Source: a virus
Virus record (IMG/VR): IMGVR_UViG_3300034026_000013
Location: 1-39,676 of that record
Direction: 5' to 3' (one strand)
Length of the DNA: 39,676 nucleotides
The translations under genes and the position numbers were made by a program. Shown in pieces: positions 26,304 to 33,588 of the stretch (positions are counted from its first letter, which is position 1; each line of letters starts with the position of its first letter). The notes under the pieces are model-generated. The model was given only the letters and a program-made list of their open reading frames with translations. It had not been told where the DNA came from and did no database searches.

Positions 26304-27902
26304 CTACTGGCTGGAGACGAGAAAGACATCCCAAGCCCAGCGATTGACTTTAGCTCCCTTCGCGTTGTCTACCTTAGCCCGGTAGCGGAAGCTGTTACCA
26401 CGTTCGTCTGTCTTCTTCGACTCTTTGTAGTCAAGGTGGAGGCGTGTTACCTGGAGCGCTGGCAGAGTGTATAACTCCGAATGCTGTGAGATTCCGTCAT
26501 GGTTAACATCCTTCCAGAGGAGGAGTAACGAGAAAATCGAGTCACGCGCGTCAATAATCCCGTCGGCATTTCCCCCTCGTTCGGGTCTGTCATATTCGGC
26601 CAGTGCGAGGAAGCCATTCTTTCTTTCTCCCGACGGGGCAGATGGTTGCGGGGTAAAGTTGCCGAATAACTCTGTGCCATTCTCTACCGCCCCGTTACCG
26701 TTGCGGTCTAGCGCGAGCCAAGCATCATCACCGTCGGCGGACGTCCAACTCAGATGCTCCGCCAAGCCGTCGCTATTCAGATCGAAGTTAACCCCACCGC
26801 TGGCATCCGTAAGGCTAAAGCCGTCCCCGAGTACATCCACCAAGATAGGTGAGACGCGTGGAATACAATCGCACTGAGTCGCGCTCCAAATTTCATCCTC
26901 GAAGCAAGAGTACGCGCCGCCCGCATCACAGCCCCCGCCATCATCAGGCGTCGGCGTTGGCGTCGGCGTGGGGGTAGGGGTAGGGGTCGGGGTCGGGGTC
27001 GGACAAGTCGTCAGATCATCAACTATCCTTTTTGAAGAACAGGTCGCGCCATCATAGTTAGATTTACACCGCATTTCGACAGGCTTAGTAGCGAGATTGC
27101 CGGTCGTGTAACCGCCGACGACAACATGCAAAGCGTAGCAATTACCCACACAGGGACGCCTATCAGTATATTGAATCTCGTCACCGCAAGTTCCGACTTG
27201 CGGCGCGCTCGCTGTTAGAAATCTGACCGGGTGACGCGATCCACGCGTGTCTGACTTTTCTAAAGGTATCAACTTTCCTGGCTTGTTCTTATCCGGCTCG
27301 TACCTCTTACCACCTATCCATACCGTACCGTCGGCAAAACCAAGCATCAGGACGGATACTCTAATTTTTTTGATGCTACCGGGATAATGTGATTCCGCCA
27401 GCAGTGCTCGGATGTCCTGATAGTCCTCGTCTGACAACTTCAGCTCCACGCTCGTTTCCGGCATTACAGGTTGGGCAGAGTTGACCGGCACTTGACCGTC
27501 CGCTGAAGGTATGGGGCTTTCTCCGTAATTAAGTGGCTCAGCAAAATCTAACCTATCTTCTTGCCCCTTAGGGCGGGGGAAAAGAAGTCTGAGGGATATG
27601 TGAGTAATCGGGTAAACTGAACGATTACGTACGCTTATAGTCAGCCCCTTAAACCAGTCCTCATTCGCGGGAAACCTTTTGCCCAACTGGATAGTCCCAG
27701 ACTGCGATTTGATAAGGGTAATTTCGACCGGGGGGTTAAAGTCATCCCCCTTTTCTAAAACCGCATCTTCACCCTGCATAGCCATTTCACCTGGCATTTT
27801 CAAATATACGACTGTTGGCGCTGTAAGCATCGTTACCACGATGCAGGATGTAAGGAAGAAAAGGTTCCGCCAATTCAAGACCCGGCGTTTAACGTTTTTC
27901 AT
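26304..27902 (-). CDS. Exported protein with TP-linker and EF-hand-like calcium repeats
   Basis: 532 residues from ATG 27902, chosen for AAAAGGAGAATCCTC just upstream rather than the in-frame ATG at 27935. Domains: signal/anchor ([16 protein letters not shown]); a domain shared with the 1-879 protein ([24 protein letters not shown]); a Cys-rich section with CGDEIQ, CVGNCY, MRC and ATC; an eight-fold TP linker; a small Cys module; then a C-terminal domain with Asp-rich calcium-type loops ([42 protein letters not shown]). It is probably surface-exposed. It is a cargo gene on the opposite strand to the late operon. Function unknown. Confidence 0.75.
26949..27000 (-). repeat. Hexamer repeat encoding the TP linker
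   Basis: A run of GGNGTN hexamers on the + strand encodes Thr-Pro repeats on the minus strand. Such tracts can change length by slippage, which would lengthen or shorten the linker. Confidence 0.6.
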
Positions 27903-28106
27903 GAGGATTCTCCTTTTCCGCAGGGATGTCTTCACATGAAGGTGAAGTTGGAGAGACTTAAGTTGACGGAATCTGATGAGTATCGCGTCAACGAGATGTT
28001 AGACTTAAGCCAATACCACTTGAGGTCTTAACTGGAGCGCCTGATTTGAAGGTTGGGAGAAGACCGCGCCAATCAAGGGCCATAGCCGTTTTCGCCGGCA
28101 GCCGAA

Positions 28107-28466: not shown

Positions 28467-30263
28467 TTAAGAATTGTTTTTTCTAGCTTCTTCCAATTCC
28501 ATTAAGCGATCGTCGTTTTTTGCCATTCTCTTCAACCGAGAGTATAGGTTGCGGAAGTCTGATTGTTCGATTGACTTGTACATAGTATGCACAATCTTAT
28601 CCGGTGCGACGCCAGGCTTTTCGACGTCAAAAGAGACAACTAAGAAAGCGTCTCTGTAATAACGAGTGAACAATTCAGGATAGTTGTCTATCGTTGAATG
28701 AATCTCTTCCAAGAAATCCATCATCACTTGGTAAGTCACGTTCGCATTGTCATCGTAAATATTTTTATGGACGCAACCACATGCCGCCAGTATTGCGAGG
28801 AACACTCTGTAGTTAGGCTTATCTTCCTTCCAAAAGCGCTGGAAGAGGTCAACATCTTCACTATCACTGTGAAGGCTTTGTATCACTTTTGCAGACTCCT
28901 GAGTGATACGGTGAATTTTAAATAGAATATCGAAGGTCTTCTCCTTGTCATCTGTGTCTTCAAAAACCTGCCGCACGATATGGTTTTTCAGCTTTGTATA
29001 GTTATTATCGATCGCATTGTTCGGCGTGTTGCTAAATAAGCCAATAAACAATGCCCTGACCTCTTCATATGTGATTTCCTTCTGGTAAAAAGAGTCCAAC
29101 ATGGCGAAGGCGGATGCCTCTTCAGAGGCACTCTTAAATGCTACATCTGACTTGCTGGCTACGTTCCTGATTTCTTGGGGTCGTATGTAACGTGCCAACC
29201 GAAGGTCTAGCTGCTTTATTTCATTCTGGAAGTTCGCCGCTTCTGCAACGTCCCAAGAATTTGTGGTCTCAACTATCTTTACTAATACGTGGCTCCCCTC
29301 GTGAGGGTGCTGTACGATCGACATGGTTGTCTGACATCCGTTTACAATGCTGGCCTCATCCAGCCTTAAAGTGTTCTCGTCTATTCTAGTAACGGTCGCG
29401 GCCCTGAAAGTAATGCCATTATTCCTTTCAAGGAACTTTGCGGGTTCTTCCTGAAGAGTCTTCGCGATTTCTTTATTAACAGTAATCTGTCCTTGGCTGA
29501 GAGAAACGCGGCCACTAGCTTGCCCTAAGAATTCTCGGATATTCTCTAAGAAGAGGGCGTTACCAAAGTTTCTGTATATTTGCTTTAGCTCACTTCCTGA
29601 AATAATCCCAACATACACCGGAGGCAAAAATATATAAGGCTGAACGAGATTCAAAATCACACCAGTAGGTAATATATGTTGCTTTCTGTAAGCAGTTTGT
29701 AAAACTGGAAGTAGTGTAGGGCCGTCAATTACATGTAAACGACCGGCCTGCATCATCGTGTCATAAAAAGGTTTGGAAGACATTTGTGAGCGCTCGTACC
29801 TCTGACGAATAGCCCTCAAGTCTGTGACTGTAATAATCATGAAGTGCGCGGTTGGCAAACTATCTTCCTGCAAGGCTTCAAACAGATTTCCACCGGCACT
29901 TGCTCGGCGACGTTCCGCGTCGTAGTTCTGAAATTTACTGATAACTGAATCAAACTCCTTAACTTCCGGGATAGAATATTTGGACTGGATAAGGAGTTCC
30001 TCAGAATTATCTAAACTGTGGCATGACAAATCTACGCCTTTGTCATGGGTTTTTCTCTTATTCTTCTTCGGCCGGTCAAACCTCTGTCCTAAGTCAAGGT
30101 GAGGCACAATCCTTAATGCAAATTCAACAAATCTGTCGCCCTTTTCCTCGGACTTTTCATGAGGCAATAAAGTGTTGAACTGATTTTCCAGATGAGATAG
30201 AAGGCTACCGTAATTTTCGAGGTATGAAGGATAAGCCACTCGTTTTGGCCGTTGATTCTTCAT
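28467..30263 (-). CDS. AIPR-family abortive infection protein with nuclease-like N-terminus
   Basis: 598 residues; TAGGAG lies 7 nt before ATG 30263. The AIPR core is plain: LENIREFLGQASGRVSLSQ, ITVNKEIAKTLQEEPAKFLE, RNNGITFRAATV, IVNGCQTTMSI. Residues ~40-100 resemble a restriction-endonuclease (Mrr-like) fold, with E47, D78 (GVDLSCHS) and Q93-x-K95 (LLIQSKYS) as a PD-(D/E)xK-type set. AIPR proteins are associated with phage resistance, classically in lactococcal abortive infection. Mechanism here is inference: nucleic-acid cleavage that stops the infected cell. The gene is clearly AT-richer than the phage body, stands alone between hairpins, and looks recently acquired. Confidence 0.8.
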   Translation of the reverse strand: MKNQRPKRVAYPSYLENYGSLLSHLENQFNTLLPHEKSEEKGDRFVEFALRIVPHLDLGQRFDRPKKNKRKTHDKGVDLSCHSLDNSEELLIQSKYSIPEVKEFDSVISKFQNYDAERRRASAGGNLFEALQEDSLPTAHFMIITVTDLRAIRQRYERSQMSSKPFYDTMMQAGRLHVIDGPTLLPVLQTAYRKQHILPTGVILNLVQPYIFLPPVYVGIISGSELKQIYRNFGNALFLENIREFLGQASGRVSLSQGQITVNKEIAKTLQEEPAKFLERNNGITFRAATVTRIDENTLRLDEASIVNGCQTTMSIVQHPHEGSHVLVKIVETTNSWDVAEAANFQNEIKQLDLRLARYIRPQEIRNVASKSDVAFKSASEEASAFAMLDSFYQKEITYEEVRALFIGLFSNTPNNAIDNNYTKLKNHIVRQVFEDTDDKEKTFDILFKIHRITQESAKVIQSLHSDSEDVDLFQRFWKEDKPNYRVFLAILAACGCVHKNIYDDNANVTYQVMMDFLEEIHSTIDNYPELFTRYYRDAFLVVSFDVEKPGVAPDKIVHTMYKSIEQSDFRNLYSRLKRMAKNDDRLMELEEARKNNS

Positions 30264-30776: not shown

Positions 30777-31424
30777 ATGACTAACTCGTCTCGGAAACTA
30801 GCATTCGCCGTTCTGCTCTCTCTCGTGGTCTTTAGTTTGATTCCGGTAAGTCACGCCGGTACAAGCCGCTCGCCAAAGCCCAAGCTCAAGGTGGCGGTGA
30901 AGATCAAGACAGACGACGGACGGACAGTGAAGGCCGTCGCTACCAACGGCAGTATGATCAAGCTCGGAAAGGACGGGGATGTTTACGGGCTGGTAGTGGC
31001 GGTACAGGATGAAGGCAAACAACTGGTCGAGTTTACCGTCTCACGGATTCCTCCTAAAGAGGGCGGTGCGCCCGAAGAAATCGAGAAACTCCAGGTCGAG
31101 GGCGCGTCGGCGAAAACGACTAACACCCCTACGAGTTTCAGTATCGAGGTGGTTCGTGTAGAGAAAGTGTCTGACGCCCCCGCGCAGAGTACCGGACAGG
31201 CCGGGCAAAGCAAGTACGCGGATTTCGTGTACGCACATTTTACGCCGGGCACGAGGGGCCTCCGCCCCGGCCCTCCTCAAGGGCGCGGTTATCAGGCTGG
31301 CGACGGAGTGTGCTGTGTCTCCTGTGATGACGGATTCACAGTCTGCGCGAACTGTTACGTCGAAATCGTGGGGTGCGGGGCTTGTATTACCGCTAAATGT
31401 ATGAACGAGGGCTTCCCCTCTTAA
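30777..31424 (+). CDS. Exported protein with Cys-rich C-terminus
   Basis: 215 residues; AACAGGAGAAACACC precedes the ATG. Signal peptide LAFAVLLSLVVFSLIPVSHA; a basic strand-rich middle (KLKVAVKIKTDDGRTVKAVA); a Pro/Ser/Gln linker; then a compact C-terminus with nine cysteines in about 32 residues (VCCVSCDDG, VCANCY, GCGACITAKC). Such CCxxC...CxxC...CxxC tails may bind metal or form disulphides after export; a processed peptide is also possible. No family could be named. It has its own host-like promoter and terminator, as expected for lysogenic-conversion cargo. Confidence 0.6.
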   Translation: MTNSSRKLAFAVLLSLVVFSLIPVSHAGTSRSPKPKLKVAVKIKTDDGRTVKAVATNGSMIKLGKDGDVYGLVVAVQDEGKQLVEFTVSRIPPKEGGAPEEIEKLQVEGASAKTTNTPTSFSIEVVRVEKVSDAPAQSTGQAGQSKYADFVYAHFTPGTRGLRPGPPQGRGYQAGDGVCCVSCDDGFTVCANCYVEIVGCGACITAKCMNEGFPS

Positions 31425-32179: not shown

Positions 32180-32208
32180 TTGCGCCAGTGTAGCTTATGC
32201 GCTACACT
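32180..32208 (+). promoter_or_regulatory. TAC operator with overlapping promoter elements
   Basis: AGTGTAGC (32187-32194), TTATGC, GCTACACT (32201-32208) form a perfect 8-bp inverted repeat directly before the toxin gene, as expected for an operator bound by the antitoxin. TTGCGC (32180) and TACACT (32203) are 17 nt apart, but that promoter would start inside the ribosome-binding site GGAGG (32212-32216). An upstream start (TTGAAC/TTATGC region) is possible, so the operator is firmer than the promoter. Confidence 0.55.
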
Positions 32209-32221
32209 TACGGAGGTCTGA

Positions 32222-32557
32222 TTGGCGACACTGATTCATGTAAAACTCTACCGAACAAAAGATGGCAGAACTCCGTTCAGGACATGGATCACCTCTCTCC
32301 GCGATGTTGACGGCCGCAACCGCATTAACGCCAAAATCACCGGTTTAAAATTAGGCAACACGAGTAATTGCGAGCCTGTCGGTGAGGGGGTCAGTGAACT
32401 CAAAATCGACTTCGGGCCGGGTTATCGTGTCTATTTTGCCAAGCGCGGCAAGTCGTTAATAATTCTCTTGTGTGGCAGCGATAAAGACGACCAGCATTCG
32501 GCCATTAAGCAGGCGAAAAAATATTGGGCCGATTACAAGTCCCGCCACACGCAGTAA
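32222..32557 (+). CDS. RelE/HigB-type toxin of a TAC module
   Basis: 111 residues, TTG start chosen for GGAGG 5 nt upstream. The sequence follows the addiction-module killer family (RelE/ParE superfamily): TPFRTWITSLRD, NRINAKITGLKLGN, then GVSELKIDFGPGYRVYFAKR and LLCGSDKDDQHSAIKQAKKY. Family members are ribosome-dependent or ribosome-associated mRNA cleavers, which halts translation when free. It is first in the operon, with the antitoxin 11 nt downstream. All the conserved family phrases are present, so it is probably active. Confidence 0.85.
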   Translation: MATLIHVKLYRTKDGRTPFRTWITSLRDVDGRNRINAKITGLKLGNTSNCEPVGEGVSELKIDFGPGYRVYFAKRGKSLIILLCGSDKDDQHSAIKQAKKYWADYKSRHTQ

Positions 32558-32568
32558 GGAGACAAGTC

Positions 32569-33018
32569 ATGGCAGCGACACAGTTTTCGTTTGATGTGAC
32601 GACGCTCACGGAAGATTTTGAAGATTACCTTACCGACCTTTTACAAGACGAGTCCGAGGCAGCCTCGTATCTCTCCGCCTGCTTTGAGGAGGAAGACCAC
32701 CGAGTGTTTTTACTCGCCTTGCGCGACATCGCGGAGGCGCGGGGGATGAGTCAGGTTGCGACGGAGGCCGGACTGAACCGTGAGAATCTATATCGGATAC
32801 TGTCAGAACTCGGGAACCCACGTCTGTCCAGCCTTAAGGAGTTATTACGCGCGTTGGGGCTTAAAGTCTCCTTCTCGCTAGGGGTAGGCGCGGAGAGGAA
32901 GGGTGCCGCGTCTATTGAGCAATGCATTGCCGAAATCGATGCCGAATATCCTGCGTTAGTTCGTACATTCTCTGTCGGTAGCAAGGATAGTGCCTATGGC
33001 GACCTCGTTACAGCTTGA
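32569..33018 (+). CDS. Antitoxin with C-terminal extension (candidate chaperone-addiction domain)
   Basis: 149 residues from ATG 32569 (AAGGAGACAAGTC upstream). Residues 1-103 match the addiction-module antidote family partnered with this toxin: DESEAASYLSACFEEEDHRV, then an HTH MSQVATEAGLNRENLYRILS and GNPRLSSLKELLRALGLKV. Usual antidotes end there; this one adds ~45 residues (ERKGAASIEQCIAEIDAEYP and on to YGDLVTA). In TAC systems such a tail makes the antitoxin unstable unless the SecB-like chaperone binds it. The last 23 nt overlap the chaperone gene. The HTH likely represses the operon at 32187-32208. Confidence 0.8.
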   Translation: MAATQFSFDVTTLTEDFEDYLTDLLQDESEAASYLSACFEEEDHRVFLLALRDIAEARGMSQVATEAGLNRENLYRILSELGNPRLSSLKELLRALGLKVSFSLGVGAERKGAASIEQCIAEIDAEYPALVRTFSVGSKDSAYGDLVTA

Positions 33019-33538
33019 AGGGTATTATATCCAGGAGTTAGGCTTCCGTATCAGGAAGGGCGTATCGGTTGCCGGGACACACCAGCTGCGCCCAGGGCTT
33101 CACCCGCAACTGGCAGAGCCCTTAGACGATGCTGCCTACAGCGTCCACGTTGAGGTCAAACTAACCCGGAATAAAACAAATCCTCATCGGTGGCGTGTAA
33201 GGTTAAACTTATCTTCGGCAGAAGAGGATAACCAAAACCCTTATGAATTTAGCACCGTGCTGGTGGGCTTCTTCCGCCTGACCGAGGAGTATGACGAGGA
33301 AGATTTACAATTCTTTATTGGTAAAAATGCGCCCACCCTTCTTTTCTCAGCGGCACGCGAAGCCATAGCTACAGCAACGGGTCGGGGCCCGTTCCCCGCT
33401 CTGGTGCTGCCTGCTGTGGTGTTTCCATCGCAACCCGACCTTAAACTTTTACCATCGGCAAAGAAGCCGGCGCGTAAGGCCGCAAAAAAGTCTTCAAAAA
33501 CTCGGTCTACGCGGAAGTCAAAAAAAGGGGCACGATAG
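32996..33538 (+). CDS. SecB-like chaperone of the TAC module
   Basis: 180 residues from ATG 32996 (AAGGA 8 nt upstream; an in-frame GTG lies at 32990). It shows the SecB fold order: LQLEGYYIQELGFRIRKG, YSVHVEVKLTRN, YEFSTVLVGFFRLTEEY, then NAPTLLFSAAREAIATATGR and GPFPALVLPAVVFPS, equivalents of the SecB N-x-x-x-LFPYxRExIs...G-FPxLxLPPxxF region. A Lys/Ala/Arg-rich 25-residue tail (KKPARKAAKKSSKTRS...) replaces the acidic SecB end, which is odd and may bind nucleic acid or ribosomes. Gene overlap with the antitoxin indicates dedicated partnership rather than general protein export. Confidence 0.8.
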   Translation: MATSLQLEGYYIQELGFRIRKGVSVAGTHQLRPGLHPQLAEPLDDAAYSVHVEVKLTRNKTNPHRWRVRLNLSSAEEDNQNPYEFSTVLVGFFRLTEEYDEEDLQFFIGKNAPTLLFSAAREAIATATGRGPFPALVLPAVVFPSQPDLKLLPSAKKPARKAAKKSSKTRSTRKSKKGAR

Positions 33539-33550
33539 AACACTTAGGCA

Positions 33551-33576
33551 CCCGGCCCGGTCAGAAATGGCCGGGC
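33551..33576 (+). terminator. Terminator of the TAC operon
   Basis: CCCGGCC (33551-33557) and GGCCGGG (33569-33575) enclose an 11-nt loop and are followed by CTTTTAT. It lies 12 nt after the SecB-like stop. Confidence 0.65.
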
Positions 33577-33588
33577 TTTTATGTATAG

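Follow-up and report, generated by a model that had tools for sequence, protein, structure and literature searches.

An HI1419/HI1420-type toxin-antitoxin pair followed by a SecB-like gene in a temperate phage genome: a putative tripartite toxin-antitoxin-chaperone operon

The operon and its phage setting

The DNA analysed here, referred to as the window, is 39,676 bases long and constitutes the complete IMG/VR virus record IMGVR_UViG_3300034026_000013. Three intact genes follow one another on its plus strand: a toxin of the HI1419-type RelE/ParE (BECR) family (32222..32557, 111 aa, TTG start), an antitoxin of the HI1420 type with a helix-turn-helix (HTH) domain (32569..33018, 149 aa) and a SecB-like chaperone of the toxin-antitoxin-chaperone (TAC) type (32996..33538, 180 aa), all three at the positions which an earlier note on this DNA had assigned to them. 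The toxin and antitoxin genes are separated by an 11-nt gap. The overlap of the chaperone gene with the antitoxin gene, described in the same note, was confirmed, the ATG at 32996 giving exactly 23 nt, in which one frame encodes the antitoxin end ..YGDLVTA* and the other the chaperone start MATSLQLE.

The operator-like repeat that had been pointed out in front of the toxin gene also held up. It is an inverted repeat of 22 bp with perfect 8-bp arms, AGTGTAGC-TTATGC-GCTACACT (32187..32208), placed 13 nt 5' of the toxin start; when the 121-nt stretch upstream was dinucleotide-shuffled 2000 times, an 8-bp arm with a spacer of up to 8 arose in 23 of the shuffles. A related motif, TGTA(G/T)Y-N(4-8)-R(A/C)TACA, occurs at -20 to -38 before the toxin start in the window and in 11 relatives (L016, L021, L022, L035, L049, L052, L058, L059, L063, L065 and L100), compared with an average of 0.25 in shuffled sequences. 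This motif was defined only once the sequences had been inspected, and for this reason autoregulation is supported rather than proven; judging by the sequence, the repeat is a probable autoregulatory site. A Shine-Dalgarno-like GGAGG (32212..32216, plus strand) is seen 5 nt before the TTG start of the toxin. Downstream of the chaperone gene an intrinsic-terminator-like hairpin is located (33554..33577, plus strand), consisting of a 10-bp stem followed by a T-run. The terminator proposed earlier is well placed, but such sites are no more numerous in the region (2 observed) than expected by chance (2.3).

The window encodes a large terminase, a tape measure protein, a tail fibre and, at its right end, a tyrosine integrase, and it therefore represents a temperate phage or prophage, in agreement with the prophage setting supposed beforehand. 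Its first 25 kb had no match at the DNA level among INPHARED phages. The host probably belongs to Acidobacteriota, because relatives of the terminase (at most 63% identity) come from genomes of one acidobacterial class, in which several of the closest SecB-like relatives of the chaperone also occur. The operon is situated in a cargo stretch with the tail genes on one side and the integrase on the other. The same cargo region, outside the operon, includes an AIPR/AbiU-like abortive-infection gene (28467..30263, minus strand; PF10592 E 2.5e-32, PADLOC AbiU E 2.1e-23) and a predicted exported protein of 215 aa with a Cys-rich C-terminus (30777-31424, plus strand) without Pfam or PADLOC matches. 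Elsewhere in the window a 543-aa open reading frame (26304-27935, minus strand) matches the phage-protease profile phrog_3677 at residues 355-501 (E 5e-11) and has no Pfam match.

Toxin, extended antitoxin and chaperone

The assignment of the first two genes to the addiction-module killer/antidote subfamily, suggested from the sequence alone, is substantiated by the toxin-first order and by curated models, the toxin scoring 112.1 bits against TIGR02683 (E 1.3e-32, NCBIfam cut-off 62.85) and the antitoxin 82.8 bits against TIGR02684 (E 1.5e-23, cut-off 53.7), with PF21716 also matching the latter (E 2.9e-20). In a 23-member alignment the toxin keeps all 12 family-invariant residues, R69, Y71, K88 and Q91 among them, and departs from near-invariant residues at two positions (G86S, D94A). 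It barely touches PF05973/Gp49, a model which the toxin of the related locus L100, discussed below, passes. No matches were obtained for the toxin in PADLOC, nor in the PDB when it was searched by sequence with the toxin alone or with the toxin and antitoxin profiles. Going by its family, the toxin presumably acts by ribosome-dependent (translation-dependent) mRNA cleavage.

Both antitoxin models, PF21716 and TIGR02684, end at residue 101-102 and leave 47-48 residues beyond, whereas nearly all of about 100 antitoxin relatives without SecB have 2-30 residues past the model end, two outliers excepted. The extended C-terminus of about 45 residues reported earlier is hence real, and on the strength of its length in comparison with relatives, residues 102-149 (32872..33015, plus strand), ending ..YGDLVTA, are regarded as a putative chaperone-addiction (ChAD) extension. 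The AlphaFold model of the antitoxin is confident in the HTH part up to residue ~100, and the tail is predicted to be flexible, with block means of pLDDT between 47 and 69. Foldseek with this model yielded generic HTH matches, none below E 0.001, and a PDB sequence search with the antitoxin alone gave one irrelevant match (E 1). Similarity between the extension and other ChADs was not detected, which is to be expected because ChADs are variable. By analogy with HigA1 of Mycobacterium tuberculosis (PMC5105189, PMC8165232), EYPALVRTFSVGSK is the likeliest candidate for a chaperone-binding stretch in the extension, and the C-terminal LVTA is a possible ClpX degron, which it resembles loosely; the antitoxin of one other TAC-like locus (L113) ends in FVTA. 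A terminal alanine was considered as a TAC hallmark and downgraded, since it is found in 31 of 102 ordinary HI1420 relatives as well as in 31 of 42 antitoxins of TAC loci (rows that are not independent); it is thus enriched but not diagnostic. As a separate observation, four Microcoleus/Tychonema loci (L023, L034, L028, L040) carry tandem HI1419/HI1420-type modules without SecB, with as many as five copies of the antitoxin within 6.3 kb and tails of 22-30 residues.

SecB homology of the third protein, which had been put beforehand to a profile search as a refutation test, was upheld by PF02556 (E 1.1e-10; 42.0 bits against a Pfam cut-off of 26). The cut-off of the canonical SecB equivalog TIGR00809 is missed (32.2 versus 102.8 bits). 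The structural model, built from a 4-row alignment and of moderate confidence (mean pLDDT 66.8), retrieved with Foldseek the SecB proteins of E. coli and H. influenzae as well as the TAC chaperone of M. tuberculosis (SecB 1qyn, E 1e-7; SecB-TA 5mtw, E 9e-7), the last in complex with a ChAD peptide of its antitoxin. In a tree of 36 rows the window chaperone falls inside a TAC clade (support 97/94), apart from canonical SecB, and its clade-mates follow DUF4258/MqsA-type, DUF4160/DUF2442 and phage Gp49/HTH pairs. The Lys/Ala/Arg-rich tail noticed earlier (residues ~150-180) is genuine; its description as unusual had to be rejected, as such tails recur in many TAC chaperones of this clade. In the M. 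tuberculosis chaperone, residues L154-P155-P156-L157 belong to the pocket that takes up the antitoxin tail (PMC6377645); they would map to F133-P134-A135-L136 of the window protein if E143/R151 equal E122/R130, a correspondence inferred otherwise than from structure alignment. Close relatives of the antitoxin or the chaperone were not found in IMG/VR, nor were those of the chaperone in INPHARED, and among plasmids the chaperone matched only two records, from Neisseria (E 4e-3).

Recurrence of the pairing and related operons

Ordinary two-component HI1419/HI1420 modules (TIGR02683/TIGR02684) share with the window operon the two families, the toxin-first order and the operator type, but differ in having a short tail past the family domain and no SecB nearby. 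In none of the roughly 97 loci fetched by way of the toxin or antitoxin was there a SecB gene within several kb, and none was found anywhere in 15 whole records. A search starting from SecB led to about 40 TAC-like loci with several toxin-antitoxin types, and a check of SecB neighbours for this killer/antidote family, as had been proposed, located one second case, the acidobacterial locus L100. Nine of 396 Acidobacteriota genomes hold a SecB-like gene, and the loci examined, L100 among them, resemble TACs. Profile A1 gave no match in 369 genomes from the phylum to which G021 belongs, a search run with no positive control.

Like the window, L100 combines toxin and antitoxin of the HI1419/HI1420 families with an extended antitoxin ending in alanine and a SecB-like third gene, and both loci possess the operator TGTAGC-N6-GCTACA, located in L100 at about -32. 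It differs in that its SecB-like gene starts just past the antitoxin without overlap, that its antitoxin tail is unrelated to that of the window, and that its chaperone belongs to a distant SecB lineage, separated from the window's with 100/98 support. As to whether the two toxin-antitoxin pairs are sisters, the tree is silent (AU p 0.365), and therefore chaperone replacement and independent recruitment are both possible.

An overlap of antitoxin and chaperone genes of about 16-29 nt was noted in L104, L108, L111-L115, L143-L145, L162, L164 and L165. Several other operons of this general layout deserve mention in their own right. In Acidobacteriota, DUF4160-DUF2442-SecB operons were encountered at L162:575-1980, on the reverse strand of L164 (581-1959 of the reverse complement) and, less clearly as regards the first gene, at L106:678-1902; their DUF2442 proteins (232-252 aa) have long tails ending in LALAA, AFAA and AVAA and overlap the SecB-like gene. 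These operons look like a further TAC type; an assignment of L162 and L164 to MqsRA was rejected, the families being DUF4160/DUF2442. Locus L112 (883-1986) comprises a BrnT-BrnA-SecB operon (PF04365, PF14384) with the antitoxin end PALAA, that is, a TAC of BrnTA type, and the reverse strand of L141 (525-1791 of the reverse complement) encodes a PARP-like protein, a small protein ending in DYDIAA and a SecB-like protein in a CmdTAC-like layout. Three more virus-borne TAC-like operons, of Gp49/HTH, MqsA-type and HigA-type and each with a SecB-like third gene, are those at L166:3192-4564, L167:1376-2820 and L168:3046-4294.

Interpretation in the light of known TACs

Antitoxin families found with SecB are those of HigBA, HicAB and MqsRA (Bordes et al. 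2016, PMC5105189), CmdTAC being an additional SecB-associated type (PMC9519451, PMC11618068), and the association is described as having had several origins (PMC4257090). The HI1420 family is absent from the chaperone-associated antitoxins named in the TAC literature searched (HigBA, HicAB, MqsRA, Cmd), and the combination of HI1419/HI1420 with SecB was not found in that literature, which lacked two central papers. The suggestion of the earlier note that the pairing may be little described is sustained as regards its rarity, but only in part for the toxin: HigB1 of M. tuberculosis is filed under PF05973/Gp49 (PMC11980606, table), and because the window toxin shares this broad group with it, what is new about the operon resides chiefly in its antitoxin family.

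The M. tuberculosis system HigB1-HigA1-SecBTA (Rv1955-Rv1956-Rv1957) has the same order of toxin, HTH antitoxin and SecB-like chaperone and a toxin of the same broad Gp49/RelE type. The ChAD of its HigA1 comprises about 42 residues and ends in Val-Ala, the putative one of the window in Thr-Ala, small residues in both cases. The window operon differs in its HI1420-family antitoxin (PF21716/TIGR02684), in the tail sequence and in being carried by a phage, and its chaperone is 15-18% identical to that of M. tuberculosis in the fold alignment. CmdTAC (PD-T4-9) likewise includes a SecB-like chaperone, to whose profile PD-T4-9_C the window protein is weakly matched (E 2e-6), and is, as the window operon may be, defence cargo of mobile elements; CmdT, however, is an ADP-ribosyltransferase, a family other than TIGR02683. 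E. coli C496 HigBAC, as cited in PMC11980606, consists of a RelE-type toxin, an antitoxin and a SecB-like chaperone and is activated by a phage structural protein; its HigB and HigA belong to another group than HI1419/HI1420.

Taken together, the window operon is interpreted, with a probability of about 0.82, as a chaperone-addicted tripartite TAC, an established type of growth-arrest switch, belonging to the cargo of a temperate phage. Its TAC anatomy is read directly from the sequence. By analogy with published TACs, in which toxin inhibition needs the chaperone (PMC5105189) and ClpX degrons at antitoxin ends are already known (PMC8165232, PMC11618068), the HTH antitoxin would bind the RelE-type toxin and would repress the operon through the TGTAGC-N6-GCTACA operator, while the 47-residue extension would destabilise the antitoxin unless it is held by the chaperone, the SecB-like product of the third gene, which overlaps the second. 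If the chaperone were lost or occupied elsewhere, for instance by a structural protein of an incoming phage, the antitoxin would be degraded, presumably by ClpXP, and the toxin would cleave mRNA and arrest the cell.

The operon probably serves the temperate phage in defence or maintenance. It is possible, though not the favoured explanation, that the operon is a true TAC whose main job is prophage retention, by killing upon loss or excision, or the tuning of growth under stress, and not the blocking of phages. Its residence in a temperate phage genome agrees with such a role, as do the original account of the first TAC as a stress-responsive system and the location of other TACs within horizontally transferred regions (PMC4257090). 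On the other hand, the AIPR/AbiU-like gene shares the cargo region, and two of the TACs studied act against phages (PMC11618068, and HigBAC as cited in PMC11980606); both roles may coexist. Quite unlikely is an ordinary two-component module that happens to be followed by an unrelated chaperone of the phage, one serving virion folding or the handling of preproteins. In its favour, the antitoxin has an entire family domain even when the tail is disregarded, and most relatives of the pair have no SecB nearby, but the 23-nt overlap, a single terminator past all three genes, an antitoxin tail that is missing in SecB-less relatives, the equal architecture of L100 and the presence of SecB of the window's clade beside TA-like modules in most loci examined speak against it. 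That the operon is a decayed remnant is hardly credible, the TTG start and the G86S and D94A changes being weak hints set against three full-length open frames, 12 of 12 invariant toxin residues, and an operator-like site, ribosome-binding site and terminator all in place.

With the chaperone-addicted TAC as the preferred reading, it may be suggested, only tentatively, that chaperone addiction has arisen among the widespread HI1420-family antitoxins in combination with two SecB lineages only distantly related to each other, and that the window TAC senses superinfecting phages through titration of its chaperone by their structural proteins. The operon would extend the range of chaperone addiction by one more antitoxin family. 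The second operon (L100), with the same antitoxin family and a distant chaperone, makes the swapping of ChAD/SecB units between antitoxins directly testable, and the virus-borne TACs (the window and L166-L168) are candidates for superinfection defence beyond enterobacteria.
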